Shown here one piece after another: positions 36,764 through 51,600 of a stretch of DNA of 64,000 bases. The notes under the pieces were generated by a model, which worked only from the letters and a program-made list of their open reading frames with translations, did no database searches and was not told the origin of the DNA. The translations under genes were made by a program, and so were the position numbers. The DNA is taken from assembly GCA_002507545.1 (NCBI GenBank), contig DAVR01000024.1, forward strand, positions 62,001-126,000, written 5' to 3'. The stretch is from Archaeoglobus sp. UBA230. GTDB lineage: Archaea; Halobacteriota; Archaeoglobi; Archaeoglobales; Archaeoglobaceae. Every line of letters begins with the position of its first letter. Within the stretch, counting starts at the first letter, position 1.

Positions 36764-37006
36764 ATGGTCATTAGCACTCTTGAGAGCAATATCATAAAGT
36801 TATCTATTGTTCAAAGAAAAACAATGGCACTTATAGTTATGGATGTCGAAAAACTGAGCTACAGGGTTGTTGACTGTTCTCGAAAACTCTTCTGCAGAAT
36901 CCATGTCTCAAAAAGTTGTCCTGCTTACTGCCCAGTAATTGTTGCAGCTAAGGATTTTGTTACGAGAAGACGGGAACCAAAAGCAGAAGTTAAGGTTTTG
37001 GAGTAG
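36764..37006 (+). CDS. Possible small cysteine-containing protein
   Basis: 80 aa if started at ATG 36764 (the frame is open to TTG 36722). The C-terminal half holds a tight group of cysteines (DCSRKLFC and SKSCPAYCPVIV). I recognise no family. TATA-like sequences at about 36698-36716 support transcription in this direction. Its 3' end overlaps the RHH-like gene by 17 bp. It may not be a real gene. Confidence 0.4.
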   Translation: MVISTLESNIIKLSIVQRKTMALIVMDVEKLSYRVVDCSRKLFCRIHVSKSCPAYCPVIVAAKDFVTRRREPKAEVKVLE

Positions 37007-37586
37007 CCTTAATCTCCGTATTATTTGAAACCCCAAACTTGGGTTCCTTCTCCCTAATAAAAAGGCTGTAACCCTGCGGAAAAACTTCAAATGTAACCGT
37101 AACGCTGTAATTTAATTCAAAAAATCTTCTCAAAGCCTCACATATTATCAAATCAGTGTTCTGACCGAGATTTGAGGTAACTAAAAGATAGTATCCCGTA
37201 TCATCTCGTTTAAGACTAACTTTTGTTGCTTTTCTCGTTGTGATTAGACACGTTTTAACACCTTCAACAGCTTCTGAAAGGGATATCTCGGAGATGGGTT
37301 TGTTGTACTGTTTCCTGATCAATATTTCGAGTTCGTTATCACAAAGAGCCCTTTCAATTTCGCCAGAAACAACGAGTTCAATCGTTTTAGCGTTGAACGC
37401 AACGAGATTTGCCTCGTCCATTATCTCAGAAAGGTTGCAGGCCTCCTCGCCCACCCCTCTTTTGTATCTGTCGAAAACAGTCAAAGCCTCCTCGATCACA
37501 TTGTTGACTCTTCCATATTCTGGAAGATACCTCTCAATTATCCTGCTTGCCTCTTCGCTGATTGTTGTGTGCAGTCTTCTTTTCAT
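36990..37586 (-). CDS. Hypothetical protein with ribbon-helix-helix-like N-terminus
   Basis: 198-aa protein. The N-terminus RRLHTTISEEASRIIERYL followed by VNNVIEEALTVF resembles a ribbon-helix-helix DNA-binding/dimerisation unit. The rest is an unrecognised alpha/beta domain with CLITTRKATKVSL and YYLLVTSNLGQNTDLIICEAL. It may be a regulator with a sensor domain. The ATG is about 26 nt from an AT-rich TTTTAAAA box. Confidence 0.6.
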   Translation of the reverse strand: MKRRLHTTISEEASRIIERYLPEYGRVNNVIEEALTVFDRYKRGVGEEACNLSEIMDEANLVAFNAKTIELVVSGEIERALCDNELEILIRKQYNKPISEISLSEAVEGVKTCLITTRKATKVSLKRDDTGYYLLVTSNLGQNTDLIICEALRRFFELNYSVTVTFEVFPQGYSLFIREKEPKFGVSNNTEIKATPKP

Positions 37587-37711: not shown

Positions 37712-38860
37712 ATGATGAGAGCAAAACTCGACCCCCTTGCTGAACTCAGGAGCGATACTGCTGAGATGATCACCAGAAGCATTAAAGAGTGGGCTGAGAA
37801 GGAGGTAATGCCCTACCGCCACGAAATTGACGACAATTTCGAGATATCCGAGAGAGCGATGAAAAAACTGTTTGTTGATATCGGCATGCAGAAGCTGATA
37901 GTTCCAGAATCTGCCGGAGGAGCAGGGGTGAGCTTTGATGAGCTTCCGCCAATTGTTTACCACAGCTTTTCAGAAATAGGAAAGGCTGATGCTGGAATTG
38001 GTTTCGTTCTTTCTGCTCTTGTAGCCTCCTCTGCTTCAGCAATTGGCAGTGAGGCTTTTGACTTTATAGTTGATAGGCTGTCCAGCAGTTTCTGCAGAAT
38101 ATCTATCATGCCACCACAGTTCGGGAATGACGATTTCAGAGGGTTTGAACTCGCCAAAGCGGTTGAGAAAGGAGACAAAGTTAGGATTAAATGTTACGGG
38201 AGGCCCCTCAATTCTGGCTTCGATGCTGACGTCTTTGTTGTGTTCTGCAACTATGATGGAGTCTCTCTTGCCCTTCTTGATGGAGAAGAGGTGGAGAGAG
38301 GAGAAATTGTAAAGACTGCTGGGCTAATTGCAAGCAGAAACTGTGATGTAAAGATAAGGGCTGAAGTTGAGAAGAGCAGAATCATAAAGGGCGATGCTTG
38401 GAAAAGGCTGGAGGTCTACCTAAACCTCTGCCTGTCCTCACTATGTGTTGGGTCTGCAATGGATTCATGTAGAATTGTGGGTGACTGGGCTGAGAAGAGG
38501 TTCATAAGGGGGAAACCGCTTAAGGATAACACGGTTGATGCTGAGGTCCTTGGAGAGGTAGCGAAAGAGGCAATTGAGGCAAACATGGCTGCTCAGTTTC
38601 TGGCCAAGACAATGCTTGAGGACAGGAGCGATGATGAGATACACGCGCTATCTAAAATTACAGCTTTGAAATGCTCAAGGGCTGCCTTCAATGTCGCTGA
38701 TAGGGCAATGGAACTCATGGCGTCTCAGGGATACGCGAGAGAGGGATTACTGGAGAAGCAGTGGAGAGATACCAAGAGCATTGCAGCATTGTTGAAGCAG
38801 CAGCACTCTCTGCTTGAGCTCTCTGAAAGATTTTTCGCCAGTAAACTGTGGGAGGGGTGA
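37712..38860 (+). CDS. Acyl-CoA dehydrogenase-like protein, degenerate (operon gene 1)
   Basis: About 382 aa with the overall acyl-CoA dehydrogenase layout: N-terminal helices, PESAGGAGVSFDELP, C-terminal four-helix part ending QGYAREGLLEKQWRDTKSI. Key motifs are eroded: the FAD-site TEPxxGSD is MPPQFGNDD, and the segment that normally holds the catalytic YEGT glutamate reads ALLKQQ. It is therefore probably a non-catalytic partner or a neofunctionalised copy, perhaps forming a complex with the next gene. Starts at ATG 37712 or 37715 (GTG 37706 possible). First gene of the ten-gene aromatic/hydroxyacyl-CoA-type operon; 4 bp before gene 2. Confidence 0.8.
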   Translation: MMRAKLDPLAELRSDTAEMITRSIKEWAEKEVMPYRHEIDDNFEISERAMKKLFVDIGMQKLIVPESAGGAGVSFDELPPIVYHSFSEIGKADAGIGFVLSALVASSASAIGSEAFDFIVDRLSSSFCRISIMPPQFGNDDFRGFELAKAVEKGDKVRIKCYGRPLNSGFDADVFVVFCNYDGVSLALLDGEEVERGEIVKTAGLIASRNCDVKIRAEVEKSRIIKGDAWKRLEVYLNLCLSSLCVGSAMDSCRIVGDWAEKRFIRGKPLKDNTVDAEVLGEVAKEAIEANMAAQFLAKTMLEDRSDDEIHALSKITALKCSRAAFNVADRAMELMASQGYAREGLLEKQWRDTKSIAALLKQQHSLLELSERFFASKLWEG

Positions 38861-38864
38861 TATT

Positions 38865-40118
38865 TTGGAGTTCGCGAGAGTTCGAGAGTTTGAGTCCCCC
38901 CTTGAGAAGTATCTGGCAGAGATGATAAAGGATTGGGGAGAAAAATACGTCTTGCCCTACAGAAGAGAGTTTGACGAGGACTGGAAGGAGCACCGCTACG
39001 TTGAACCTGCTCTTGAGAAGCTGATGGTTGATTACGGCTTTCAGATTGCTGTTTTTCCTGAAGAGTTTGGTGGATGGGGATTCGGCAATTCCGATTATTT
39101 TGGTTCCGTAACTGCAAGACTGATGGAAGAGATTGGAAGATACGACACGGGCATCGCTGTTTCAGTGGGTGTAACCTTCTGGCCGCTTTTCATGATAACT
39201 GTAAAGCCTCATGTGAATTATGATCTCTGTGCTGAATTTTCCCAGCTTTTTGCCAGGAAAAAGCTGACAATAGCTGCAAACGCCATGACAGAACCGCAAG
39301 GTGGCTCGGACATCGAGAATCTGGACGAGTTGAAGGGAAAGACTATCAGAACGACCGCAGTTCTTGAGGGGGACGAGTGGGTGATCAATGGGCATAAACT
39401 TTGGCCTACCAACACGGGTGGAGTGGCGGATTTGTTCGGTGTTGTATGCACAACGAAGCCCGGAGAGGCTGATGAGAAACATTTTACCTACATATACGTC
39501 CCCGCCACTTTACCGGGAGTCAAGCAGGGTGAACCGTATCGCAAGGCAGGGATGGCGGCGGATAAAAACTCGGACATATGGTTTGACAACGTCAGGGTGC
39601 CAAAGTATTACAGAGCGTGGGGGGAGGGGCTGGATGCCAAGTACTTCAGAGAGATAATCACTACAGGTTGTCTCGGGAGCGCTGCGATGGCTCTGGGTGC
39701 GATGGAAAACATATATGAAATTCTGTACGAGAAGTGCAGTGAGCTGAGATACCGAGGGAAGCCTTTAAAGGAGAACACCGCTGTTGCAGCAGTTCTGGCA
39801 GATATAGCTGCTGAGATTGAGGTAAGCAGAGCAGCAGTTTACACCTACGCAAGGATGCTCGACCGCCCGGATATCTATGGTGAGAGGTATTCTGCTGAAA
39901 TGGTTGCGAGAGGTAGGGCTTTGAAGCTGAAGGTTTGCGATGTCTGCTGCGACGTGGCAAGAAAAGCCGTGGATCTGCTTTCTCATTATGGAATAGACAG
40001 AAACTTCGACATAGAGAAGCACTGGAGGGATGTCAAAATGATCCAGCTCTGGATGGGAGGAAGGCAGCTCTGCCAGATGGATGTTGCGAGGCATTTTTAT
40101 GATTGTAAGCAGCTTTGA
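38865..40118 (+). CDS. Acyl-CoA dehydrogenase family flavoprotein (operon gene 2)
   Basis: 417-aa acyl-CoA dehydrogenase-type protein with intact FAD-binding motifs: AMTEPQGGSD, then WVINGHKLWPTNTGGVADL. At the usual catalytic position the sequence is QLWMGG instead of QIYEGT, so the canonical glutamate is missing; FREIITTG supplies a Glu near the alternative isovaleryl-type position. The reaction may be a dehydrogenation or reduction of a cyclic or branched acyl-CoA made by the downstream reductase. TTG 38865, with GGAGGGG 9 nt upstream, is preferred over upstream in-frame starts that overlap gene 1. Confidence 0.85.
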   Translation: MEFARVREFESPLEKYLAEMIKDWGEKYVLPYRREFDEDWKEHRYVEPALEKLMVDYGFQIAVFPEEFGGWGFGNSDYFGSVTARLMEEIGRYDTGIAVSVGVTFWPLFMITVKPHVNYDLCAEFSQLFARKKLTIAANAMTEPQGGSDIENLDELKGKTIRTTAVLEGDEWVINGHKLWPTNTGGVADLFGVVCTTKPGEADEKHFTYIYVPATLPGVKQGEPYRKAGMAADKNSDIWFDNVRVPKYYRAWGEGLDAKYFREIITTGCLGSAAMALGAMENIYEILYEKCSELRYRGKPLKENTAVAAVLADIAAEIEVSRAAVYTYARMLDRPDIYGERYSAEMVARGRALKLKVCDVCCDVARKAVDLLSHYGIDRNFDIEKHWRDVKMIQLWMGGRQLCQMDVARHFYDCKQL

Positions 40119-40127
40119 GGTGGTTTT

Positions 40128-41411
40128 ATGGGCGATATGAGTTTTGGGATTTTCAGGATTCTCGCAGGGTCTCCCTTCTACAAAGACTTTCTCAGAAAGA
40201 CCGCAAATGAGTTCTTTGATCCTGCTGTTGTGGAAAACGAGGTTAAAGAGATACTGGATAAAGACATAGAGTTTACAGCAACGATCTTCAGCCTCATGCC
40301 AAGAACCGCAAACACCCTGTTCGGTGTAATGAGAGGATTTAACGCATATTCAAGCAAATTCACAAGCGATGCTCTCGTAGGAATACTGAAGGGGGTTGCA
40401 GGAGATTTCGATGCAAAATATGCTGCAGAAACGCTAAACGAGTTCTTTGATGGAATGGAGAGGCTAAGAAAAGACTATCCAAAGCTCTTTGCTGAAATCA
40501 CAGGTCAGAAAATAGAGGAGTTTTTCGATACACTGGATTTTGGCAAGCTGAGGAAGTTTATTGAGGATACTGCCTATTGCTCGCAAGGTATCTTTGAGAT
40601 ACTAAATGAAAAGATTATCGGTAACCCGATTAAGCTCGCAAATCTCATGGCTTCAATGCCTGCAGTAACTAATGCCAGCATTGCCATTGCAAATGATGCT
40701 TTACAGAGGACCGAGATGCCATCTGAACTTCTTGCAAGTGCAACCTTTAACACTCTGGAAAGCTTGAATGTGGAGGATTTAGCCAAACTGGTTGAGAATC
40801 TGGCAAAATTCGTGAATAAGCTGCATGAGGGCAATTATATACTGGGAAGGGGAGAGGCAAAGTTCAAAGAAGTTGCTGAAAATATAATTGAGCGGTTTCT
40901 GAACAGTATAGATGTCGAGGAGCTGAAAAAAGCCGTTCTTGCCCTTCTGGATGATGCAAGGGATGTGAATGAAGCTTTTACCAACGCACTCTGGCGAAAT
41001 CCTCTTGCGTTGATGTCTCTGTCATCCTTGGTTCCAATTGCCGTTAACGTCCTTGTTGAGATGCTGGGCAAAATCCTGTCAAAATTCGAAGAGCTGCCAG
41101 TTGAACTGACAGCACAGATCGTAACAACAATCATCAAGGAAATAGATGCCGACAAGTTGGGCGATGTTATCACTGTTGCTGCAAGAACCTTCAACGAGGT
41201 TGCAAAGAGAAATCCCGAGGTTATTTCGGGAGTAATCAACGCGGCAATTGCGTCTGCAGACAGCAAGGAGATTGAAAAGCTAATCAACAACCTCACGAAG
41301 TCTTTTGTTGATGTTTTACTCTCCAATCCTGAAGTCCTCACAGCAGCTGTAACACCACTTGTCCAGTCCTTTGCTGATATTGTTAAGATTAACAAAGGAG
41401 GTGAAGAATGA
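40128..41411 (+). CDS. All-helical repeat protein of unknown function (operon gene 3)
   Basis: 427 aa, no recognised family and no signal or membrane segment. Almost entirely helical with internal repeats. Units begin with a short acidic cap plus LxxhhxxhA (DTLDFGKLRKFIEDTA; SLNVEDLAKLVENLA; SIDVEELKKAVLALL; EIDADKLGDVITVAA; SADSKEIEKLINNL). Several contain an NP turn (IIGNPIKLANLMASMPAV; WRNPLALMSLSSLVPIAV; KRNPEVISGVI; LSNPEVLTAAV). Two 80-residue blocks (about 142-225 and 260-340) look like duplicates. It may be an ARM/HEAT-like scaffold. Its stop overlaps gene 4 (ATGA), embedding it in the operon. Confidence 0.85.
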   Translation: MGDMSFGIFRILAGSPFYKDFLRKTANEFFDPAVVENEVKEILDKDIEFTATIFSLMPRTANTLFGVMRGFNAYSSKFTSDALVGILKGVAGDFDAKYAAETLNEFFDGMERLRKDYPKLFAEITGQKIEEFFDTLDFGKLRKFIEDTAYCSQGIFEILNEKIIGNPIKLANLMASMPAVTNASIAIANDALQRTEMPSELLASATFNTLESLNVEDLAKLVENLAKFVNKLHEGNYILGRGEAKFKEVAENIIERFLNSIDVEELKKAVLALLDDARDVNEAFTNALWRNPLALMSLSSLVPIAVNVLVEMLGKILSKFEELPVELTAQIVTTIIKEIDADKLGDVITVAARTFNEVAKRNPEVISGVINAAIASADSKEIEKLINNLTKSFVDVLLSNPEVLTAAVTPLVQSFADIVKINKGGEE

Positions 41412-42520
41412 GTTTATCGAAAATTCATGAAATAGCATCAACTCTTGAAAACGAATACGTTAGGAAATGGAAGTCAGAAGGAAATGCAGTTATAGGGCAT
41501 GCCTGCATAGCGATGCCAAAAGAGGTGGCTGAGGCTGGCAGAATCTTGCCCTTCAGACTTAGGGGGGCTGAGAATGCCGACACATCCACAGCAGACTCTT
41601 ATCTGTCAAGGTACAATTGCAGTTTATGCAGAAGCTGTCTCGAATTGGTTCTTAACGGTAGCTATGACTTTCTTGACGGTCTTGTGAGGATAAGAGGATG
41701 TGACCACTGGATGGGCACCTTTGACGAAATCCAGCATGCGAAAAATCCAGAGTTTATGCACTACCTCAAAGTTCCCCATCTCGTTAACGAAGATACGCTG
41801 GACTTCTTCTCAAATGAGATAAAGAGGTTGAAAGAGGCTTTTGAGAACAGATTTGGTGTGGAAATTACCGAAGACGAAATTGTAAGGTATGCAAAAGTTC
41901 AGGACAAAATAAACAAGAAAATGAGGGAGTTTTACAGGCTGAGATTCAAGAAGTCGAGATTTTACGGAAGTGATGCAATAGCAATTATGGTGGCGAGAGA
42001 GTCTTTACCCTCTGAAGCTTTCTTACCGCTGCTTGAATCTGCAATGGCTGAGAAAAAGAAAGTAGAGTATAGGGCCAAGGTTCTGCTCGCTGGTAGCCCT
42101 CTTGATGAGATCGAGCTTATAAGGAAGATAGAAGAGATGGGTGCTTTGATCGTGGCTGAAACTACATGTTTCGGAGGGGGGAGCTTCTGGAACATGGCTG
42201 AGTATGACGGAAGCGAGATTTACGAGTTTTTGGCAAGTAAATACCTCAACAACCTGAAGATTTGTGCAAGAATGTTTGGAGAGTATGCTTACAGAAAGAA
42301 TTTCATTAAAACCATAGCCGAAGAGGCTGAGGTGGATGGTGTGATTCTGCAGCACAACAAGTTCTGCGATCTATTCGGCATCGAAAATGCAAAGCTGAGA
42401 ATAGACCTTGAGAGGGAGGGTTTACCGACACTCGTTCTTGAGAAGGAATATGCCTCGACAGCTGACATTGGCAGGATAAAGACGAGGGTTCAGGCTTTTC
42501 TTGAGAGATTGAAGAGGTGA
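41408..42520 (+). CDS. Benzoyl-CoA reductase/2-hydroxyacyl-CoA dehydratase catalytic subunit, BzdN/BcrC/HgdB type (operon gene 4)
   Basis: 370-aa member of the HGD-D family. Cluster-binding cysteines are visible: GHACIAMPKEV, YNCSLCRSCLEL, RGCDHW, and the late NKFCDLFGIENAKLRIDLEREG followed by GLPTLVLEKEYASTADIGRIKTR-like closing region. Length matches BzdN/BcrC. With the larger subunit it should bind a [4Fe-4S] cluster that passes a low-potential electron to an acyl-CoA (aromatic ring reduction or radical dehydration). Two distinct activator ATPases downstream favour a benzoyl-CoA-reductase-like arrangement. A good AAAGGAGGTGAAG precedes the ATG. Confidence 0.88.
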   Translation: MSLSKIHEIASTLENEYVRKWKSEGNAVIGHACIAMPKEVAEAGRILPFRLRGAENADTSTADSYLSRYNCSLCRSCLELVLNGSYDFLDGLVRIRGCDHWMGTFDEIQHAKNPEFMHYLKVPHLVNEDTLDFFSNEIKRLKEAFENRFGVEITEDEIVRYAKVQDKINKKMREFYRLRFKKSRFYGSDAIAIMVARESLPSEAFLPLLESAMAEKKKVEYRAKVLLAGSPLDEIELIRKIEEMGALIVAETTCFGGGSFWNMAEYDGSEIYEFLASKYLNNLKICARMFGEYAYRKNFIKTIAEEAEVDGVILQHNKFCDLFGIENAKLRIDLEREGLPTLVLEKEYASTADIGRIKTRVQAFLERLKR

Positions 42521-42526
42521 GGGCTT

Positions 42527-43906
42527 ATGACCTCACTGCCGGGACTTGTAAAAAGAAGTTATGACTTGATCAAAACAATTGAAAGATTGGAGAATTATAC
42601 CCCGATGGAAGTTGAGGGGCTTTACAGAATTGTTGGAAAGGATTTGGGTCAGAGTGCAAAAGCTCTATTAGATGAAAGACATGACGGAGCAGGACTGCAC
42701 TTCATGAGAGTTATTGCAAGACATATAGCGGAGGCTGTCGAGGCAAAAGAGGATGGAAAGAAGGTAATTCTGATCCCTTTCAACTTTCCACCCGAACTCA
42801 TCCACGCTTTTGAGAACGCTGTTCCTTTGACAACCGAAGTTATCAGCACAATCGGTGTTACAACCCTTGAAGGACAGGGAGAGCCATACTGGGATTATGC
42901 CATGTCCCTCGGCATTCCTGACTATGTATGTTCTGCAAACACTATCGAGCTTGGTTCTGCATTGATGTCGGTCGAAACCCTTGAACTTGCACCTGATATA
43001 ATCATATCTGGTGCTCCGGGGTCATGCGATGCCAACTCGAAAATTCATGAGTTTGTTGCTGAATATCTTGACATTCCTGAACTTACAATAGACAAAACCG
43101 GGAGTGGTAAAAGAGACTACGAACTCTACAGAAAACTCTTTCTGAATATGGTTAAAGAACTTGAGGAGTTTGTTGGAGAGGATATAGATGAAGACAAGAT
43201 AATTGAGGTCATGGAAAGAGCAAACGAATGCACGGAACTCTACTGGGAGCTTCATGAACTCAAGAAACACTCACCGTGTCCAGTTCCCAACATGTTCACA
43301 CTCTTCACCTACGGGACGAGATTTACCATGTGGGGAAGAGATGAGGCAATATCAATGTTCGAAAAGCTCGTGGATGTAGCAGAGAAGAGACTGAAGAGAG
43401 GAGAGTATCCTGCGGAGAAAGAGATAGCGAGGAGTTTGTGGGTTTACACGGGTTATTACATAGACCTCTACGACCTCTGGATATGGATGGAGAATAATGG
43501 GATAACGTATCTGACTGACGGTCTGAACTCCTTTTTCCCAGCCCAGTTCGAGATTGAAACAAAGGAGGATGCTCTTGAAGCCATTATTTCTTCAGCATGG
43601 AACTATCCAATGACAAGGCAGATGGGGGCTGACAACATGGGGATAAGATGGTTCGAGGATTTGACACATGTCGGTAAAGAACTTAATGCAAACTGTGCGA
43701 TTTACTGCGGTCACCACTCATGCAAACAGACGCAAAGCGTTTTCAGAATCTTTAGGGATGAAGCAAATAAAATCGGAATTCCCGTTTTGAGGCTCGATGG
43801 GGATGCATGGAATCGGAGAATAACACCTGTCAGTGTCCTTCAGGAGATGATTCTCGATTTTGTTCAGAATGTTGTTACCAAAAGAAGGAGGAGAAGGAGA
43901 AGGTAG
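42527..43906 (+). CDS. BzdO/BcrB-like catalytic subunit, copy 1 (operon gene 5)
   Basis: 459-aa second catalytic subunit of an ATP-dependent benzoyl-CoA reductase or 2-hydroxyacyl-CoA dehydratase family enzyme. Candidate cluster or active-site segments are PDYVCSANT, APGSCDANSKIHEF, KKHSPCPVPNMF and YCGHHSCKQTQ. The protein ends in a run of seven arginines (TKRRRRRRR). The downstream copy shares identical DNA blocks with it (see repeats). Length fits BzdO better than the shorter HgdA. Six bp separate it from gene 4, and GAGGTGAGGG precedes the ATG. Confidence 0.87.
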   Translation: MTSLPGLVKRSYDLIKTIERLENYTPMEVEGLYRIVGKDLGQSAKALLDERHDGAGLHFMRVIARHIAEAVEAKEDGKKVILIPFNFPPELIHAFENAVPLTTEVISTIGVTTLEGQGEPYWDYAMSLGIPDYVCSANTIELGSALMSVETLELAPDIIISGAPGSCDANSKIHEFVAEYLDIPELTIDKTGSGKRDYELYRKLFLNMVKELEEFVGEDIDEDKIIEVMERANECTELYWELHELKKHSPCPVPNMFTLFTYGTRFTMWGRDEAISMFEKLVDVAEKRLKRGEYPAEKEIARSLWVYTGYYIDLYDLWIWMENNGITYLTDGLNSFFPAQFEIETKEDALEAIISSAWNYPMTRQMGADNMGIRWFEDLTHVGKELNANCAIYCGHHSCKQTQSVFRIFRDEANKIGIPVLRLDGDAWNRRITPVSVLQEMILDFVQNVVTKRRRRRRR

Positions 43907-45304
43907 AAAAGGTGACATAATGTCCGAAATTGTAGGAATAACCAAAAGAAGTTCTGAAATTCTAAGAACTATTGAAAAAATTGAAAAATACAGCGAGAGT
44001 GAACTTGAAGGACTTACGAAGCTGGTTGGAGACATACAGGCTCATACGATTCTCTCTTTTCTTGATGAGAGACATGGTGATGCCGGTTTGTATTTTCTAC
44101 AGAATATACTTTCAAAACACGTAAACGAGGCAGTGAAGGCGAAAGAAGAGGGGAAGAAGGTAATTCTGATCCCTTTCAACTTTCCACCCGAACTCATCCA
44201 CGCTTTTGAGAACGCTGTTCCTTTGACAACCGAAATGATGAGCACGATTGGCTCTCTTGCACTTCAAGGACAGGGAGAGCCATACTGGGATTATGCCATG
44301 TCCCTCGGCATTCCTGACTATGTATGTTCTGCAAACACTACCGCTCTTGGCTCAATGCTTACTGCTGTAAAGGGCTTTGAAATAGCTCCTGATGCTATGA
44401 TCTCAGCCTGTCCGGGAGCGTGTGATGCCAACTCGAAAATACATGAGTTTGTGGCTGAGACGCTCAACGTCCCTGAATTCATGCTGGATAAAATGGGAGA
44501 TGGTGTTTCCGACTACGAACTCTACAGAAAACTCTTTCTGAATATGGTTAAAGAACTTGAGGAGTTTGTTGGAGAGGATATAGATGAAGACAGAATTGTG
44601 AAAGCAGTAGAGAATGGCAATATCTGCACGGAACTCTACTGGGAGCTCCATGAGTTCAAGAAACACTCACCATGTCCAGTTCCCAACATGTTCACCCTGT
44701 TTAGCTGTGGAACCCGTTTCACAATGTGGGGAAGAGATGAGGCAATATTAATGTTCGAAAAGCTCGTGGATGTAGCAGAGAAGAGACTGAAGAGAGGAGA
44801 GTATCCTGCGGAGAAAGAGATAGCGAGGAGTTTGTGGGTTTACACGGGTTATTACATAGACCTCTACGACCTCTGGATATGGATGGAGAATAATGGGATA
44901 ACGTATCTCACAGACATTTTGAATTCGGGTGGATTTCCCCAAATTTACGAAGTTTTCACGAAGGAAGATGCACTTGAAGCTATCATCAGAACTTCCTGGA
45001 ATTACGGGATGACAAAGCAGATGGGTGCTGAAAACATGGGTTTGAAATGGACTGAAGATTTTATCTTTTTGGCGGAAGACTTGAATGCAAACTGTGCCAT
45101 TTACTGTGGTCATCACGCATGCAAGCAATCGCAGGCGGTTTTCAGAATACTTCGCGATGGCATGAGTAGTAGGGGAATTCCAGTTTTAAGACTCGATGGA
45201 GATTGTTGGAATAAAAGAATAACACCTGTCAGTGTCCTTCAGGAGATGATTCTCGATTTTGTTCAGAATGTTGTTACCAAAAGAAGGAGGAGAAGGAGAA
45301 GGTA
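42758..45304 (+). repeat. Mosaic tandem duplication between the two BzdO-like genes
   Basis: Blocks identical between copies: 42758-42838 = 44154-44234 (81 bp), 42870-42944 = 44266-44340 (75 bp), 43115-43196 = 44511-44592 (82 bp), 43328-43512 = 44724-44908 (185 bp, one mismatch), and 43817-43905 = 45216-45304 (89 bp). Sequences between blocks differ at many positions, including synonymous ones. The first four blocks share a fixed offset of 1396 bp and the last 1399 bp. The pattern indicates block-wise gene conversion after an old duplication. Confidence 0.9.
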
Positions 45305-45305
45305 A
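43920..45305 (+). CDS. BzdO/BcrB-like catalytic subunit, copy 2 (operon gene 6)
   Basis: 461-aa tandem paralogue of gene 5, with the same order of motifs but local differences at likely functional sites: SACPGACDANSK (an extra Cys) where copy 1 has SGAPGSCDANSK, SCGTRF for TYGTRF, and DGDCWN for DGDAWN. It has the same C-terminal seven-arginine tail. ATG 43920 has GGTGA just upstream; the frame is open into the end of copy 1. Two O-type subunits with one N-type subunit implies either alternative complexes or a three-subunit catalytic core. Confidence 0.87.
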   Translation: MSEIVGITKRSSEILRTIEKIEKYSESELEGLTKLVGDIQAHTILSFLDERHGDAGLYFLQNILSKHVNEAVKAKEEGKKVILIPFNFPPELIHAFENAVPLTTEMMSTIGSLALQGQGEPYWDYAMSLGIPDYVCSANTTALGSMLTAVKGFEIAPDAMISACPGACDANSKIHEFVAETLNVPEFMLDKMGDGVSDYELYRKLFLNMVKELEEFVGEDIDEDRIVKAVENGNICTELYWELHEFKKHSPCPVPNMFTLFSCGTRFTMWGRDEAILMFEKLVDVAEKRLKRGEYPAEKEIARSLWVYTGYYIDLYDLWIWMENNGITYLTDILNSGGFPQIYEVFTKEDALEAIIRTSWNYGMTKQMGAENMGLKWTEDFIFLAEDLNANCAIYCGHHACKQSQAVFRILRDGMSSRGIPVLRLDGDCWNKRITPVSVLQEMILDFVQNVVTKRRRRRRR

Positions 45306-45319
45306 TCGGAGGTGATTGA

Positions 45320-46108
45320 TTGCTTTTCGGTGGGACTGATGTCGGATCTCTCACAGCACAGGCAGTTTTGCTTGAAGATAGCAAAATAGTCGGATACAGA
45401 AACATCAGAGTGCTGCCAAATCCGGTTGAGTCAGCTAAGAAAGTTATGGGAGAACTTCTTGAAGAGATTGGGGTGAATCAGGACGAGGTGGTGATATTCT
45501 CAACTGGCTACGGTAGAGAGAAGTTAGTTGAAGCTGGCTTTGCGAGAGAGCACGTGAGTGAGATAAGCTGCCATGGTCGAGGAGCTTTCTGGCTAAATTC
45601 AGCGATAAGAACAATAATTGATATCGGTGGACAGGATGCGAAGGTTGTCAGAATTGACGAAAATGGAAATCTGACTAATTTCGTGATGAACGACAAATGT
45701 GCAGCAGGAACCGGAAGATTTCTTGAGATACAAGCAAAAGCCCTCGGTCTGACTCTGGATGAACTTGGAGATATGACCTTTAGAGCTTCAAATCCAGTTG
45801 CAATAACCGCGAGGTGCAGCATCTATGCTGAAACAGAAGTTCTGCACTACATGCAGCGTAGATTTGCCAAGGAGGACATAGCCGCTGGAGTGAACAGGTC
45901 AATGGCAGAGAGAATCTACTATCTTGCAAGGCGAGTTGGGGTTGAGAGAGAGGTTACGCTAACTGGAGGTGTGGCAAAGAACAGGGGGGTCAAGCAGGAG
46001 CTTGAGAAGATTCTGGGAGTTAAGTTCGTTGATCTTGGCGTTGATCCGCAGATTGTAGGGGCTCTTGGGGCAGCAATTTTTGCAATGGAGAAATACGGAG
46101 GTGAATGA
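45320..46108 (+). CDS. BadF/BcrA/HgdC-type activator ATPase, first subunit (operon gene 7)
   Basis: 262-aa ASKHA-fold ATPase: GTDVGSLTAQAVLLED phosphate-1 loop, FSTGYGRE, IIDIGGQDAKVVRID phosphate-2 and TLTGGVAKNRGV adenosine loop. The two cysteines that bridge the subunit-interface [4Fe-4S] cluster are Cys127 (NDKCAAGTGRF) and Cys166 (TARCSIYAETEV). It would drive ATP-dependent electron transfer to the catalytic subunits. TTG start at 45320 with GGAGGTGA four bases upstream. Paired with the non-identical gene 8, as in BCR (P/Q or A/D) rather than homodimeric HgdC. Confidence 0.92.
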   Translation: MLFGGTDVGSLTAQAVLLEDSKIVGYRNIRVLPNPVESAKKVMGELLEEIGVNQDEVVIFSTGYGREKLVEAGFAREHVSEISCHGRGAFWLNSAIRTIIDIGGQDAKVVRIDENGNLTNFVMNDKCAAGTGRFLEIQAKALGLTLDELGDMTFRASNPVAITARCSIYAETEVLHYMQRRFAKEDIAAGVNRSMAERIYYLARRVGVEREVTLTGGVAKNRGVKQELEKILGVKFVDLGVDPQIVGALGAAIFAMEKYGGE

Positions 46109-46852
46109 ATGTTTCTCGGCGTTGATGTTGGAATGAGATTCACCAAAGCCGTTCTGTGGGACGGAGAGATAGTTTCCACCATCATTGAGGAAACAAGAGG
46201 AGACATGAAGCCCATACTGGAGAGAATTAAAGGTGTGGATGACTTTAAACTCTGCTGCTCCACAGGTAGCGGGGCAGAACTGGTGGATTTTGCGGAAGTA
46301 AAGGAAGATGATGTGGTATGCTTGGCAATTGCTGCGAGAGATATTGTTGATGTAGACTTCGTTCTGGACATAGGCGGGCAGAGCATCACAGCGATATCGG
46401 TTGATAAGGAAGGTAACGTAATTGATTTCATGAGAAACGACAAGTGTGCGAGCGGGAGCGGGAGGTTCTTGGAGGTCATGAGTTCAGCACTTGGAATTGA
46501 GATAGAAGACGTTGATACTGTAGCATCAAAAGCTAACAGGAAGCTGTCAATAACATCCCAATGCGCGGTTTTTGCAGAAAGCGAGGTGATTTCCTACGTA
46601 AACGAGGGAGAAAGCAAGGAAAATATCATTGCTGCCGTTTGCGATTCGATTGCTAAGCTTGCGGTTGCTCAGGCGAACAGGTTCGGTATGGGGGGGAGAT
46701 ACACGATTACCGGTGGTGTAGCAGGGTTTAAAAGCATAACTGAGAGAATCGCAGAGGCTGTTGGCGGGGAATACGTGGAATTCCCGCAACCTCAGCTGGC
46801 TGCAGCCATAGGGGCTGCGATAGTTGCGGAAGAGGAATTCGGAGATGTTTGA
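46109..46852 (+). CDS. BadG/BcrD/HgdC-type activator ATPase, second subunit (operon gene 8)
   Basis: 247-aa ASKHA ATPase homologous to gene 7 but diverged: GVDVGMRFTKAVLWDG, FVLDIGGQSITAISVDKEG, cluster cysteines Cys113 (NDKCASGSGRF) and Cys152 (TSQCAVFAESEV), and YTITGGVAGFKS. Probably forms a heterodimer with gene 7 around one [4Fe-4S] cluster. ATG directly follows the gene 7 stop, with GGAGGTGA upstream. Its end overlaps gene 9 by 8 bp. Confidence 0.92.
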   Translation: MFLGVDVGMRFTKAVLWDGEIVSTIIEETRGDMKPILERIKGVDDFKLCCSTGSGAELVDFAEVKEDDVVCLAIAARDIVDVDFVLDIGGQSITAISVDKEGNVIDFMRNDKCASGSGRFLEVMSSALGIEIEDVDTVASKANRKLSITSQCAVFAESEVISYVNEGESKENIIAAVCDSIAKLAVAQANRFGMGGRYTITGGVAGFKSITERIAEAVGGEYVEFPQPQLAAAIGAAIVAEEEFGDV

Positions 46853-47522
46853 AGAATTAGTTAGTGAGATTCGTCGGTTTGTGATGAGAGGGGTTGAGGA
46901 GGGGTTGATTGATGTAAGAGACTATCAGGAATTTCCAAGATGGGAAAGGAGAAAGGACGTAATTTTGAGAGGAGAGCTTGCCTACGAGTTTGGGAAGCAG
47001 AACTCAATATTGCTTCTCACGTGGGGAAAGGCTGAGAACAGGATTTATCTACCCACAAACAATGGTAAAGATCGGCTGGCTGTTATTGTCATCTCCGATG
47101 CCGAAATTGAGGACGTGTACGAATGTTTCAGGGCTATGAGAGACACCTTTTACAGCTTGAATCTGAGAGGTGTTACCATCAGAAGTCTTCCAAGCCAGAT
47201 GAGGGTTTGGCTGAGGGTTGGAAGGGGCGCAGATAGAGAGGGTTTTAACCTTGGGGTTTTTGGCAGGGCAATCATCGAGTCCATGAATTCCCTCGATTTT
47301 GTCAGAGCTACCGATGTTGTCTTTTTCACATCGAGAGAAGAGATTGAAAAGTTAAAGGAGCAGTTTTCGAAGGGAAAGAAGATTGTAGAGGCACTGATAA
47401 AAATGCATGAGGAAAAGTTGTTGAACTGTGAGGAGTGCGATTACAGCGATGTATGCAGCGAGATTCCTGAACTCAGAAGGATAAGGGAGAGAATGAGGTT
47501 GAAAGAGAGGGACAAGAGATGA
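46845..47522 (+). CDS. Acetyl-CoA synthase beta (CdhC)-like partial-domain protein (operon gene 9)
   Basis: 225-aa protein. From memory of the family, residues about 80-210 follow the pattern of the acetyl-CoA synthase/CdhC middle domain: W(I/L)RV followed by GF and FG (seen here as VWLRVGRGADREGFNLGVFG), then a DxVxFFTSREE strand-helix, then a Cys group (LNCEECDYSDVCSEIPELRR). The last resembles the C-x2-C-x8-C of the A-cluster, with shorter spacing. The Ni-binding CGC segment of true ACS is absent. Function unknown; the neighbouring CooC-type ATPase supports a metallocluster role. Start ATG 46845 overlaps gene 8. Confidence 0.6.
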   Translation: MFEELVSEIRRFVMRGVEEGLIDVRDYQEFPRWERRKDVILRGELAYEFGKQNSILLLTWGKAENRIYLPTNNGKDRLAVIVISDAEIEDVYECFRAMRDTFYSLNLRGVTIRSLPSQMRVWLRVGRGADREGFNLGVFGRAIIESMNSLDFVRATDVVFFTSREEIEKLKEQFSKGKKIVEALIKMHEEKLLNCEECDYSDVCSEIPELRRIRERMRLKERDKR

Positions 47523-48262
47523 GAATCGCAGTTGTCGGGAAAGGCGGTGTGGGAAAGACGTCAATCTCTGCGATGCTTGTCAAAGTACTGTCGGAGAGGC
47601 ACAGGATTCTGGCTGTTGACGCTGATCCTGCTGGAGGACTGGCAACGTCCCTTGGCATTGAAGTTCACAAGACGCTGAACGATGTTAGAGAGGAGATTAT
47701 CCAGATGTTGAGACAAAAGTATGACAAAGTAGAGATTGCCGCGTCTATAGACTACAGGGTATTTGAGGTGCTTGTTGAGGAGGGCAGCTTTGCTTTACTT
47801 GCCGTTGGTAGACCTGAGGAGGAAGGTTGCTACTGCCAGCTTAACACCATGCTCAGGGAGGCGATTGAAATTTTATCCAAGTCCTTTGATTATACAGTTA
47901 TTGATGGAGAGGCGGGAATAGAGCAGATAAACCGCAGAGTCATGAGAAGTGTTGACACACTTCTTGTCGTTACCGACATGTCGAAGAAGGGGTTTCAGGT
48001 GGCTGGTCAGATAATACAGGTTGCAAAGAGGGCCACTGGGTTTAAAATAGCGGGTTTAATCGTTAATAGGGTGAGTATGGTGGGAAGTGTAGATGTTAAG
48101 GTTGAGGCGGAGGCAAGAAACAAAGGATTTGATTTTATCCACATTGTTCCTGAGGATGAGACGATTTCAAGATTCGACGTCGAGGGCAAGTCTTTCTTGG
48201 AGCTTCCCGAGTGTGTTGCTCTAAGGGCTGTGAAGGGTATTGTTAAGTTGTTAAGTATTTAG
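47519..48262 (+). CDS. CooC-type nickel/metallocluster maturation ATPase (operon gene 10)
   Basis: 247-aa MinD/SIMIBI-class ATPase with deviant Walker A AVVGKGGVGKTSISAML, AVDADPAGGLATSLG, and the CooC-diagnostic CxC at Cys104/Cys106 (EEGCYCQLNTM). CooC proteins insert nickel into carbon monoxide dehydrogenase. No CODH catalytic gene is in the window, so its client could be the CdhC-like protein of gene 9 or a distant CODH/ACS. ATG overlaps the gene 9 stop by 4 bp (ATGA); last gene of the operon. Confidence 0.9.
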   Translation: MRIAVVGKGGVGKTSISAMLVKVLSERHRILAVDADPAGGLATSLGIEVHKTLNDVREEIIQMLRQKYDKVEIAASIDYRVFEVLVEEGSFALLAVGRPEEEGCYCQLNTMLREAIEILSKSFDYTVIDGEAGIEQINRRVMRSVDTLLVVTDMSKKGFQVAGQIIQVAKRATGFKIAGLIVNRVSMVGSVDVKVEAEARNKGFDFIHIVPEDETISRFDVEGKSFLELPECVALRAVKGIVKLLSI

Positions 48263-48694: not shown

Positions 48695-51600
48695 ATGAAA
48701 AAGGTAGGATTAATAGGCTTAGTAATAGCGGCACTTTTAGTGATATCAGTGACTCCAGCGATGGCGGCTCAGGTAAACAATGTAACTTTAAACACCAGTG
48801 GGCTTTATCTCTACAACTTCGAAGTAAACACCACATCGGGTGTCCTGCCCTTGACTGTCCAATTCACGTTCTACATGAACAACACTAATGCTACTAATAC
48901 ACTATCCGGAACTGTTTACGTTTACGTTGACGGAGTAAAAACAGCCACTAGCAAATCTGTTACCGTAGCAAATAACACGTCTAAAGCCACTGATACCATC
49001 ACATACACTCTTACAACCTTCCCCACAACCGGAGAGTATAAAGTTTCGGTTGGTAACAACTCAGACTGGCTACCAAACGCGACAATAAAAGTCTTTGTAC
49101 AGGATGCTGGACCGGTTAACATACCCGGAATGCAGATAGATCGCTTTGAACTCTCTGACGATGAAATAGACCTTGGAACCGAGCTTGAGATTTATGTAGA
49201 CTATGGAAAGAACGAAACTCAAACGAGGAGAGTTGCCGTTATTGATTGGGCAACATACAACTCCGATGTTAGAGGAGATATTCCAACACTGCTGAGCAAG
49301 GCTGATGCAGTATGGACTCTTGGTGATGGACCGGCAAGTGATACCTACACGTTTACACCCGATGAACCGGGTTACTATCTTGCAATAGCCTTCAACAGCA
49401 CGAGTATAGGCAAAGTCCTTGGATTCAGAGTTGTTCCAGCTGTCTCAGGTAAGCCAACAGTCAGCATAAGCGTTGACAAGAGTTCGGTGGCTATTGGAGA
49501 TTATGTCAAAGTTGAAGCTTCAATGTCAACCGACGTGCCAGTTAGTGTTGTGAAAGTTTTCGTTACAGGTTCAGGATACTTCCTGAATGAGACCGGCTAC
49601 GGAGGAACAAGCTACATGCTTTGTTATGCAACGGGAGGCGAGTGGTACAGAGTTGAGGATGCCTGTGGCGACGATACCTGGTGGGTCAAGATAAGTGACG
49701 TGCCAGAAGGAGTATATGTAGCAAAGATTGATGTTGGAGATGGGCCGACGAGGGCTGAAGCAACTGCAGTTTTCAGTGTTGTTAAGCCAGCAATTCTCAG
49801 CCTTACTGTTCCATCAACCCACGTGAAGGGTACAGACCTGGTCATAGAGGGTACAACCAACCTTGCAAAGAGCGGAGAGAATGATGACAATGCCAGCATA
49901 GCACCACAGGTTGAGAACTGGGCATACCTCACAATTGAAGACCTGTCTGGCAAAGAGATCGTGAACTCAACCATTACCAGTGCCGCAATGTCATACATCG
50001 ATGAGGGAGGAAAGTTCAGATTCAAGCTCGACAACTTCGGAACTACGGGAGCAGGAGGTAATCTTGACACTGGTTACTACAAGGTGACTGTGCAGATAAA
50101 CTCAGGAATTAGAACCGATGAGGAAACAGCAGTATTTGAACTTGTAAAGGCTGAGATTAAGTTGACTGCCGACAAGAACTCAGTAACAAGAGGTGATACA
50201 GTAACCTTCACAATTGACACCAACATGAAAGTCAACAATCCTGTTAACTTCACAATCGAAGATACCGACTTCTGTACTGGCGATCCAGACTGTGTAGAAG
50301 AGAAGACGTATTACGTAGATGTGCTCGGTGATGTAGTAATCAAGCTTGACGTTAACACTATGGCTCCGCTTACAGACTATAAGTTTACTGCTGAAATCGT
50401 TGATCTTGGCGTGTCCGATGAGGTTAGAGTCACTGTTGTAAAGCAGGCGCTCAATATCTCTGCCGAAACTAATGTTGTGGTAAGAGGCGGAGATGTTAGA
50501 TTCACGGGTTCAACCACTGCTGACGTCGTGTATGTGTACGCTGACGAACCAGGAGTATTCCAGATTGGAAATGTAGATGTTGCAGAGCTCCCAAGTGACA
50601 CGATCCTTGACACTGCAGCTGAGCTAACTACAGCTATGGTTTACCCAGACAGTAACGATATGCTCGACTTCAAGGTTGACGTCTTGGTGCAGACCAGCCA
50701 GTATGGAGATGTGTCACCAGGAACGTATTATCTGTACTTCTACGCTCCGGCAAACGTCACAGGTGGTGTAGCCAATGAAATCGACAGAGCATCAGACGCT
50801 CAGGCAATAGTCGCGATCTCTGTCACAGATCCAAAGATCGAATCTGTAGATATCCCAAGCAAGCTACCATATCAGGGCGAGGTAGAGGTAAGCATACTTA
50901 CAGCTCCAGGCGATAGAGATAACGTAGAACTAACATTCACACTCGAAGGAAGCAACATCAAAGCGAGACCAAACGACTTCGGAATAAGCACCGAACAGAA
51001 ACCAAATGCCAACAATTATGTGAACTTTACACTTGACTTCAAGGAGTATGCGGTCAGAAAAGGTTCCACACTTGAACCTGGACTCTACGTGTTCACAGTT
51101 AAGCTGAGTTTCGTTGATGCTCTCGGAGGGGACGAAGTAGATTCAAAGGAGATATTGGTTGAAATAGTTCCACAGACACTTGACGTCCAGATTGATCCCG
51201 CATCACCAGTGGTTGGAGACAAGATAACTGTCACAGTTACCACCAACCGTGAGGGCGTCTCAGGCTACGACCACATCTGGGTGACAATGGTTGGTACAAA
51301 TTACAAGGCTGTCCAGAGAGTGACGCTGAATAGCGAAGGAAAGGGAACAGTAAGCTTCGAGACAGTCGGACTTGCACCCGGAACTTACAAGTTCTATGTC
51401 AGAGATACTGCTGGAACGGTAGACCAGATGACTGAAGTTGAACTCGTTGAAGAACTCTACGACCTCGATGCCGCTGACACACTGGCCAAGGTTTATGATG
51501 CACATGACGATCTCCTCGTAGTTAAAACTGTTGAAGTTCTCGAAACTGCGCCAACCCCAACGCCAACAACTCCAGCCCCAACCACACCTGCACCAACAAC

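Follow-up and report, generated by a model that had tools for sequence, protein, structure and literature searches.

The window, by which we mean the whole stretch of 64,000 nucleotides from Archaeoglobus sp. UBA230 that was analyzed, carries ten open reading frames (ORFs) lying back to back on the plus strand from 37712 to 48262 with gaps of no more than 14 bp, just as the initial annotation of this DNA had described. Start codons were set by eye from the sequence for ACD2 (TTG at 38865), O2 (ATG at 43920), and gene 9 (ATG at 46845); intergenic gaps range from -8 to +14 bp with the starts so chosen and from -14 to +14 bp with the ORF limits used in the comparison of loci. The ten genes, together with a probable divergent regulator that lies outside the span covered by the initial annotation, are as follows.

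36990..37586, minus strand: probable divergent regulator, 198 aa
37712..38860, plus strand: gene 1 (ACD1), degenerate acyl-CoA-dehydrogenase-fold protein with Pfam ACAD N and C domains
38865..40118, plus strand: gene 2 (ACD2), acyl-CoA dehydrogenase family, ACAD N, middle, and C domains, TTG start after GGAGGGGTGAT
40128..41411, plus strand: gene 3, 427-aa all-helical repeat protein of no known family
41408..42520, plus strand: gene 4 (N), BzdN/DCCP-type subunit, HGD-D, six conserved Cys (33, 71, 98, 254, 286, 320)
42527..43906, plus strand: gene 5 (O1), O-type subunit, HGD-D, cluster Cys and Glu kept
43920..45305, plus strand: gene 6 (O2), second O-type subunit, HGD-D, Cys137, Cys169, Cys402, Glu106, Asn172
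45320..46108, plus strand: gene 7 (act1), BadF-type ATPase, BcrAD_BadFG, TIGR00241 at 254 bits
46109..46852, plus strand: gene 8 (act2), second, unlike BadF-type ATPase, BcrAD_BadFG, TIGR00241 at 170 bits
46845..47522, plus strand: gene 9, ACS/CdhC middle-domain protein ending in CxxCx5C, from profile and fold comparison
47519..48262, plus strand: gene 10, CooC-type ATPase with Walker A GKGGVGKT and GCYC

Pfam places genes 1 and 2 in ACAD, genes 4 to 6 in HGD-D, genes 7 and 8 in BcrAD_BadFG, and gene 10 among the CbiA/AAA_31 P-loop proteins, and returned no family above cut-off for genes 3 and 9. The family labels first given to the ten genes hold, except that the two copies called BzdO-type score nearer to HadB than to BzdO, with no family cut-off reached. 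Of 20 dN/dS comparisons against two congeners, the 19 yielding a value were all below 0.13; saturation prevented a value for O1 against L023, and, each congener having a single O, two of the values obtained compare O paralogues. On these codon comparisons, the operon genes are under purifying selection.

The 198-aa protein, which retrieved no match in a Pfam search and has what we take by eye to be a ribbon-helix-helix-like N-terminus, probably regulates the operon. Divergent orthologues at 66-88% identity directly precede the operon in L021, L024, L028, and L035, so that with the window counted it is present in five of six Archaeoglobi; the contig of the remaining one, L023, stops there. In ACD1, the ACAD middle domain was not matched by Pfam, and Leu stands where MCAD has its catalytic Glu (presumably Glu376), as read by eye without a tool alignment. 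ACD2 has Met at this position in alignments to solved ACADs, and among the 22 ACD rows showing the LWxGG motif, Met occurs in 16, Leu in two, and Glu in four. Since ACD1 and ACD2 lack the canonical catalytic Glu, a plain dehydrogenation step by these proteins appears doubtful. Gene 3 retrieved no Pfam or NCBIfam family above cut-off and one weak PADLOC match (E 3e-4); profile self-alignment detects internal repeats (E 2e-13), and the predicted model is helical throughout and of poor quality (pLDDT 53).

Gene 9 was found in 6 of the 59 genomes of the class (Archaeoglobi), and the operon order is kept in all six, in one of them (G045) over two contigs and with act1 appearing as two ORF pieces. 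The full order with two O copies is also present in Ca. Geothermincola (Actinomycetota), and L034, a locus classed as Myxococcota in treekit, keeps the core without the ACDs and the helical gene. Among 47 loci picked by the presence of gene 9, N, O, at least two activators, gene 9, and CooC occur together within the fetched stretch in 26, and 16 of these also have an ACD and the helical protein. The ten-gene order thus recurs in homologous loci with genes 1-3 and 9-10 included, a point on which the initial annotation had made its reading depend. Pairwise distances were correlated in all eight gene pairs tested, with the observed value reached in 0 of 999 shuffles; shared species descent contributes to this correlation too.

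Near four to eight of the 46 clustered loci are genes for acyl-CoA synthetase, short-chain dehydrogenase, MaoC/MFE-2 hydratase, GMC oxidoreductase, and ferredoxin-type proteins; as a clue to the substrate these neighbors were set aside, none being consistent over the 46 loci. We would like to note that some recurrent flanking clusters are plainly antisense ORFs. A link to alkanes was rejected as well, as MCR is found in 7 of the 59 class genomes and in only two of the six operon genomes (G045 and G053) and is not a general partner. Upstream of the L034 core lie FrhB-like and 2-oxoacid:ferredoxin-oxidoreductase-type genes, a plausible source of ferredoxin.

For N, the best match in the PDB is BzdN (118 bits). 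The six Cys columns of the double-cubane [8Fe-9S] cluster, whose chemistry in BzdN we take from the available parts of PMC11971306, are kept in all 6 Archaeoglobal N, all 36 other N, and all 7 BzdN rows. These columns are not exclusive to such proteins, being present in both rows of an Archaeoglobal HadBC-like pair. DCCP has one reductase and is not known to have a separate O subunit. The operon shares with it (PDB 6eno, 7yyl) the six-Cys N-type subunit and differs in having N, O, and two activators; against the DCCP profile NF040772, N reaches 175 bits (cut-off 350).

In the O subunits, Cys137, Cys169, Cys402, and Glu106 are present in all seven Archaeoglobal rows, and in 54, 54, 50, and 51, respectively, of the 54 other O rows. 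Glu106 is the equivalent of the catalytic Glu65 of BzdO, and the same Glu is found in both HadB-like rows. The column of BzdO His131 is His in 7/7 BzdO rows and Asn in 7/7 Archaeoglobal O and 35/54 other O rows, and the column of the thioester-binding Tyr97 is Tyr in 7/7 BzdO rows and Ala or Ser in 7/7 Archaeoglobal O rows. The DNA of O1 and O2 shares five identical tracts of 75-159 bp each. The additional O copy, which the initial annotation placed outside both textbook systems, is not an oddity of this operon, as homologous loci with O hold one to three copies. The sequence C-x-I-Y-x-G-H-H-x-C near the third O ligand was considered as a nickel site and rejected, being a clade feature that does not follow CooC; in the other CooC-linked clade, the first Cys of the motif is replaced by Phe, Met, or Leu and the HH is missing.

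The trees built were quick ones with SH-aLRT support only, long-branch warnings, and some open forks, and with BcrABCD, MbdNOPQ, and tetrahydronaphthoyl-CoA reductase left out; in them, N forms a group apart from the Archaeoglobal HadC-like and BzdN rows, and act1 and act2 form separate clades, both outside the BzdP and BzdQ clades. The first N/O tree was built with five of the seven BzdO rows and without the HadB-like O rows, and the later O tree, which includes all of these, splits all 61 gene-9-linked O rows from the BzdO and HadB-like rows (SH-aLRT 98). A benzoyl-CoA-reductase-like N accompanied by two unlike activators, as originally proposed, is borne out. A placement among ordinary hydroxyacyl-CoA dehydratases, which the initial annotation had named as refuting its reading, was not seen for N or O in these trees.

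The operon might be an ordinary 2-hydroxyacyl-CoA dehydratase operon of the HadBC/HgdAB type, serving amino acid or hydroxyacid metabolism. HadB is both the top NCBIfam match of the two O copies (68 and 54 bits, cut-off 750) and their closest solved relative (46 bits), and the operon has in common with the 2-hydroxyisocaproyl-CoA dehydratase HadBC (PDB 3o3m) the HGD-D fold, a three-Cys cluster in O, and a BadF-type activator. It differs from HadBC in its accessory genes, in having two activators that are unlike each other, and in the extra double-cubane Cys of N, at least two of which are missing from solved HadC when aligned to N. The operon O also lacks the Tyr kept at the Tyr97 column by HadB-like and BzdO rows and groups apart from both. 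The genome has a separate HadBC-like pair with one activator elsewhere; that pair reaches only 270 and 138 bits against the strict NF052455/NF052456 cut-offs, and N itself scores 111 bits against these profiles (cut-off 700). To our knowledge, 2-hydroxyacyl-CoA dehydratase operons do not include ACS-like or CooC genes. We therefore regard a plain dehydratase as unlikely.

We hold it to be rather improbable too that the operon encodes a strict class I benzoyl-CoA reductase, dearomatizing benzoyl-CoA in aromatic degradation. The operon shares with BzdNOPQ (PDB 8s02; PMC11971306, in the parts available), of which BzdNO has been made in E. coli, a six-Cys N, a three-Cys O with the catalytic Glu, and two unlike BadF ATPases, and among solved structures its N is nearest to BzdN. 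Nevertheless, against the benzoyl-CoA reductase family profiles (the TIGR03190/03191/03192 set), N scores 118 bits (cut-off 453.8), O2 18 bits (cut-off 448.6), and act1 215 bits (cut-off 380.2), all far below cut-off, whereas the Archaeoglobal BzdO used as control scores 504 (448.6), BzdN 428 (453.8, just short), and BzdQ 434. The operon further differs from BzdNOPQ in the replacement of His131 by Asn and Tyr97 by Ala or Ser in O, and in that N, O, and the activators all stand in clades apart from Archaeoglobal bzdNOPQ; such loci hold one to three O copies and add the ACDs, the helical protein, the ACS domain, and CooC. A BzdO above cut-off is found in 0 of the 6 operon genomes compared with 14 of the 59 class genomes. 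Oah-like matches of ~133-145 bits occur in 15 mostly bzd genomes, compared with at most 106 bits in operon genomes, a weak contrast in which none of the 59 genomes passes the cut-off. A benzoyl-CoA role is disfavored.

Gene 9 retrieved a weak NCBIfam match to ACS beta (E 4.8e-5) and aligned to CdhC over residues 26-211 with hhalign (E 9e-9). Foldseek and VIA were applied to the gene 9 model alone: Foldseek matched ACS at E 3e-8, with all 21 of its matches at E <= 0.001 being ACS, and VIA gave Z 16.0 for ACS compared with 4.1 for the first non-ACS row among the matches listed. The protein shares the fold of ACS residues ~319-498, and its CxxC...C is profile-aligned to the first three Cys of the A-cluster cubane. 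In contrast to ACS, it is only ~225 aa long and stops before the fourth cubane Cys and the CGC nickel motif, both absent, and its spacing is CxxCx5C where ACS has CxxCx8Cx9C. This three-Cys end near the C-terminus is present in 48/48 gene 9 rows; the model is of low confidence there (blocks 49-64), and the structural alignment does not reach it. The protein is a true ACS middle (A2) domain that lacks the ACS nickel site. In L114, L125, and L126, gene 9 has a single ACD as its neighbor and the stretch contains no N or O, so that gene 9 may serve more than N and O.

Gene 10 shares with the nickel-insertion ATPase CooC (PMC6006190, in the parts available) the deviant Walker A and the CxC metal motif, and differs in its separate clade and in having benzoyl-CoA-reductase-like genes rather than CODH as neighbors. 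The clade comprises 37 rows, the window included, and is separated from the CooCs of CdhC loci (SH-aLRT 99). The GC(Y/F)C-type motif is found in 36 of 37 CooC rows; the one without it is a distant ATPase from a bzd locus. The initial assignments of gene 9 as ACS-beta-like and gene 10 as CooC-type are confirmed by these profile, fold, and motif matches. Since the two families have relatives among CODH/ACS proteins, the pair could be a maturation or redox unit of CODH/ACS kin, separate from the enzyme and merely sharing the cluster, and CooC, which lies no more than 500 bp from gene 9 in 36 of the 47 loci, does not adjoin it in 11. We give this reading little credence: the pair accompanies N, O, and the activators in archaea and bacteria with correlated divergence, the genome's CdhC has a second CooC of its own nearby, and no CODH or full ACS is found among the ten genes. 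Chance adjacency of unrelated genes, for which no support was found, is negligible given an order kept in archaea and bacteria, overlapping genes, and purifying selection.

The ten-gene cluster is probably a real, undescribed enzyme system. We favor, at a probability of roughly 0.55, a complete ATP-driven acyl-CoA reductase (or reductive dehydratase) forming its own branch of the HGD-D/benzoyl-CoA reductase superfamily, with an ACS-derived accessory protein and a chaperone of its own. In such an enzyme, act1 and act2, probably as a heterodimer, would accept electrons from ferredoxin and, upon ATP hydrolysis, pass single low-potential electrons to the double-cubane [8Fe-9S] cluster in N, which would hand them on to O. 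There, at a [4Fe-4S] cluster held by three cysteines and leaving one iron site open, the acyl-CoA would be reduced by one-electron chemistry. ACD1/ACD2 would be a flavoprotein acting on the same acyl-CoA series, gene 9 and its dedicated CooC would be accessory proteins that assemble or load the enzyme's metal site, and the helical repeat protein may be a scaffold or binding protein. Of the earlier proposal of an ATP-driven reductase/dehydratase with its own metallocluster assembly, the cluster, the families, and the recurrence stand, while the reaction is one we infer and nickel is possible.

A bolder version, in which gene 9 and CooC would supply nickel to the O cubane or to gene 9 itself, giving a Ni-Fe-S ATP-driven reductase, a hybrid of benzoyl-CoA reductase and ACS with chemistry new to both, strikes us as speculative. 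The stretches examined for L110, L113, and L116-L120 contain gene 9, N, and O and lack CooC (the contig of L117 ends at gene 9); CooC is thus either not strictly needed or acts from elsewhere, and these seven loci partly argue against nickel.

We know of no earlier link between ATP-driven reductases of this kind and the ACS lineage. No description of such a system was found in searches of an open-access library. The 'Magic' benzene cluster (PMC13101534) and BzS1 (PMC13416013) were set aside, as the available parts of these papers concern other genes; in those of PMC7306483 and PMC10134865, DCCP and CooC genes are separate, or 'cooc' stands only within the word cooccurrence.

If the favored reading of an ATP-driven acyl-CoA reductase is true, the operon would represent a further branch, shared by archaea and bacteria, of the enzymes that spend ATP to drive electrons beyond the usual biological limit. 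An ACS domain has here been reused without its nickel site, the clients of this CooC clade are probably not CO dehydrogenases, and BzdQ-like or BzdN-like matches in metagenome genomes need not imply aromatic degradation.

All ten ORFs of the operon proposed in the initial annotation are present on the + strand, neighbouring genes overlapping or lying no more than 14 bp apart, in the order ACD1, ACD2 (acyl-CoA-dehydrogenase-like), helical protein (gene 3), N (BzdN/DCCP-type), O1, O2 (O-type HGD-D subunits), act1, act2 (unlike BadF-type ATPases), gene 9 (ACS/CdhC middle-domain protein) and CooC (gene 10). Of 20 gene comparisons against two congeners, 19 gave dN/dS below 0.13, among them those of the helical gene and of gene 9; the remaining one (O1 against locus L023) was saturated. 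The operon and its surroundings in the window are:

37712-48262, + strand: ten-gene operon.
36990-37586, divergent, upstream: 198-aa ORF, kept at the same position in other Archaeoglobi; a Pfam search with it gave no match.
48695-51760, downstream: large protein whose start is signal-like and whose C-terminal part carries Thr/Pro repeats; judged by eye, it looks like an S-layer protein.

The finding is real, and its distribution is wider than the initial annotation, made from this one sequence, could tell. The gene 9 probe matched strongly in 6 of the 59 genomes of the class (the window's own, G000, and G003, G004, G032, G045 and G053), and the ten-gene order recurs around gene 9 in the other Archaeoglobal matches and also in Ca. 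Geothermincola. O is single in four of the other five Archaeoglobal operon genomes and present in at least two copies in G045, where the operon is spread over two contigs and act1 reads as two ORF pieces. A scan of the species-genome collection with two short peptide patterns from the O alignment, which misses distant members because only these two were used, retrieved 7 relatives, of which five are Archaeoglobal loci and the others Ca. Geothermincola secundus (Actinomycetota) and a ‘Deltaproteobacteria’ MAG listed under Myxococcota. The Geothermincola locus is complete (ACD1, ACD2, helical, N, O, O, act1, act2, gene 9, CooC), and the MAG locus (L034) has N, O, act1, act2, gene 9 and CooC after FrhB-like and 2-oxoacid:ferredoxin-oxidoreductase-type genes. 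These FrhB-like, POR/TPP-type and POR-gamma-type genes lie immediately 5' of N (L034:5037-8700) and perhaps encode its ferredoxin-reducing partner.

At E <= 0.001, the gene 9 profile matched in 137 of 297 genomes from the phylum of the MAG, 36 of 198 from that of Geothermincola and 77 of 392 from that of the window. Among the matches listed, the majority are weakly scoring, ACS-length frames; gene-9-like rows outscoring full-length ACS frames number at least 31, 13 and 7, respectively, and their frames as printed are mostly 219-377 aa (a few reach 467-571 owing to frame run-on). With 40 further loci added from these matches, the study covered 47 loci. In 26 of them gene 9 is accompanied by N, O, CooC and at least two activators; an ACD and the helical protein are present as well in 16 of those 26. 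On the strand of gene 9, 36 of the 47 loci have CooC no more than 500 bp away, 37 have O no more than 3 kb away and 36 have N no more than 8 kb away; since gene 9 was the criterion for choosing loci, and some of the contigs are short, these figures describe gene 9's company and not operon frequency. All 8 gene pairs tested showed correlated pairwise distances (Spearman 0.48-0.88, values that none of 999 permutations reached), the pattern that co-inheritance predicts, although shared species descent contributes to it as well. Five loci (L101, L103, L105, L106 and L107) carry a second N-O set after CooC, with an activator in most and a 4Fe-4S protein in some, whose N and O belong to other clades. 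At L110:9862-14064, a 1400-aa protein that combines two BadF stretches with DUF2229 lies near a gene-9/N/O/activator set.

In class I benzoyl-CoA reductase (BCR), six Cys of BzdN carry a double-cubane [8Fe-9S] cluster, and Cys95, Cys128 and Cys380 of BzdO bind a [4Fe-4S] cluster, with Glu65 and His131 next to its water ligand (PMC11971306). The window's N retains all six Cys columns (Cys33, 71, 98, 254, 286 and 320), as do 6/6 Archaeoglobal, 36/36 other and 7/7 BzdN rows; solved HadC, aligned to N, is non-Cys at the first and fourth positions. An Archaeoglobal HadBC-like pair (HadBC, 2-hydroxyisocaproyl-CoA dehydratase) elsewhere in the window's genome has all six too, so the trait is common property and not diagnostic. 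Outside the operon, that pair, which has one activator (L171:6034-8961, contig C27), is the only occurrence of HGD-D genes detected in the genome, and similar matches occur in many class genomes. O keeps the three cluster Cys and Glu106, which profile and multiple alignment agree is the BzdO Glu65 equivalent, but where class I BCR has His131 and Tyr97 it has Asn172 and Ala/Ser, the Tyr being kept in HadB-like and BzdO rows. This pattern suggests that the BCR electron path is present and that the active-site pocket is different.

N and the activators cluster with homologues from similar operons and not with Archaeoglobal bzd or HadC-like rows. In the O tree, seven BzdO and two HadB-like rows form one group (SH-aLRT 98) opposed to 61 gene-9-linked O rows that include O1 and O2 (SH-aLRT 98), with long deep branches, some forks open and a long-branch-attraction type warning from the program. 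O1 is sister to the G004 copy and O2 to the G003 copy, so the duplication predates these species. These old, diverged paralogues (window 42527-45305) have in common five DNA tracts of 75-159 bp that are identical and alternate with regions of 53-83% identity, a mosaic indicative of gene conversion.

By Pfam, ACD2 is a full ACAD and ACD1 a degenerate one. The usual catalytic Glu is replaced by Met in ACD2 (aligned to solved ACADs) and by Leu in ACD1 (by eye); at the LWxGG/LYxGG motif position, 22 ACD rows have Met (16), Leu (2) or Glu (4), the Glu rows being lone ACDs beside gene 9 (L114, L125, L126) and the third ACD of L099. ACD1 and ACD2 may form one heteromeric flavoenzyme using another base, or may have a role other than dehydrogenation. 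The product of gene 3 is a helical repeat protein, for which bacterial loci often have two or three genes.

Gene 9 and CooC were confirmed as an ACS-type domain and a CooC-type ATPase, as annotated. In profile-profile alignment with nine CdhC sequences, gene 9 matched over residues 26-211 (E 9e-9, calculated as for one comparison), placing its CxxCx5C, present in 48/48 gene 9 sequences, opposite CxxCx8C of CdhC, which supplies the first three ligands of the A-cluster cubane. All 21 Foldseek matches of its AlphaFold model (pLDDT 86) at E <= 0.001 are ACS, and VIA-align placed model residues 24-186 on ACS 319-498 (Z 16.0, rmsd 2.6 over 158 residues; first non-ACS row listed, Z 4.1). The Cys end, with blocks at pLDDT 49-64, lies beyond this structural alignment and is supported by sequence alone. 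Unlike ACS, gene 9 is without the region in which the fourth Cys of the cubane and the nickel-site CGC lie; its three-Cys motif may bind either a cluster that has an open iron site or zinc. Gene-9-like proteins at L114:9811-10614, L125:1944-2747 and L126:2024-2827 adjoin a single ACD with the catalytic Glu, and N, O and CooC were not found in those stretches.

Gene 10 has GKGGVGKT and GCYC motifs, the latter type occurring in 36 of 37 CooC rows (the remaining row, from a bzd locus, is a distant ATPase). With the window, these 36 form a 37-row clade (SH-aLRT 99) separate from the CooC rows of CdhC loci, and the window's genome has another CooC near CdhC (contig C39); hence gene 10 is probably a dedicated chaperone serving this system. 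In C. hydrogenoformans CooC-1 both Cys of the motif bind one nickel per dimer, nickel binding across all CooCs being described as unclear (PMC6006190), and a survey of CODH neighbourhoods discusses CooC in CODH operons (PMC13056359). That nickel is involved, as the initial annotation's nickel-type maturation pair implied, appears unlikely. In its favour are the CxC of CooC and the ACS descent of gene 9; against it, the nickel ligands of ACS are missing from gene 9, seven loci with gene 9, N and O (L110, L113, L116-L120) have no CooC in the stretch, although L117 ends next to gene 9, and an extra Cys/His motif in O does not follow CooC.

Most likely, electrons would pass from ferredoxin through act1/act2 (with ATP) to the N double cubane, the O cluster and an acyl-CoA, ACD1/ACD2 would draw on the same pool of substrates, and assembly or metal loading would be the task of gene 9 and CooC. 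Benzoyl-CoA is disfavoured as the substrate, since BzdO passed its cut-off in 0/6 operon genomes (14/59 class genomes) and the O pocket differs. Oah matches stayed below the cut-off in all 59 class genomes and so speak neither for nor against benzoyl-CoA. MCR-based alkane activation was rejected as a common partner, MCR being present in 2/6 operon genomes. Among the open-access papers listed, none gave an account of this cluster in its title, the opening of its abstract or the text consulted. The strangest feature of the cluster, the linkage of an ACS domain and CooC to a BCR-like enzyme, is firmly supported by sequence and fold, and the two may play an accessory role in it.
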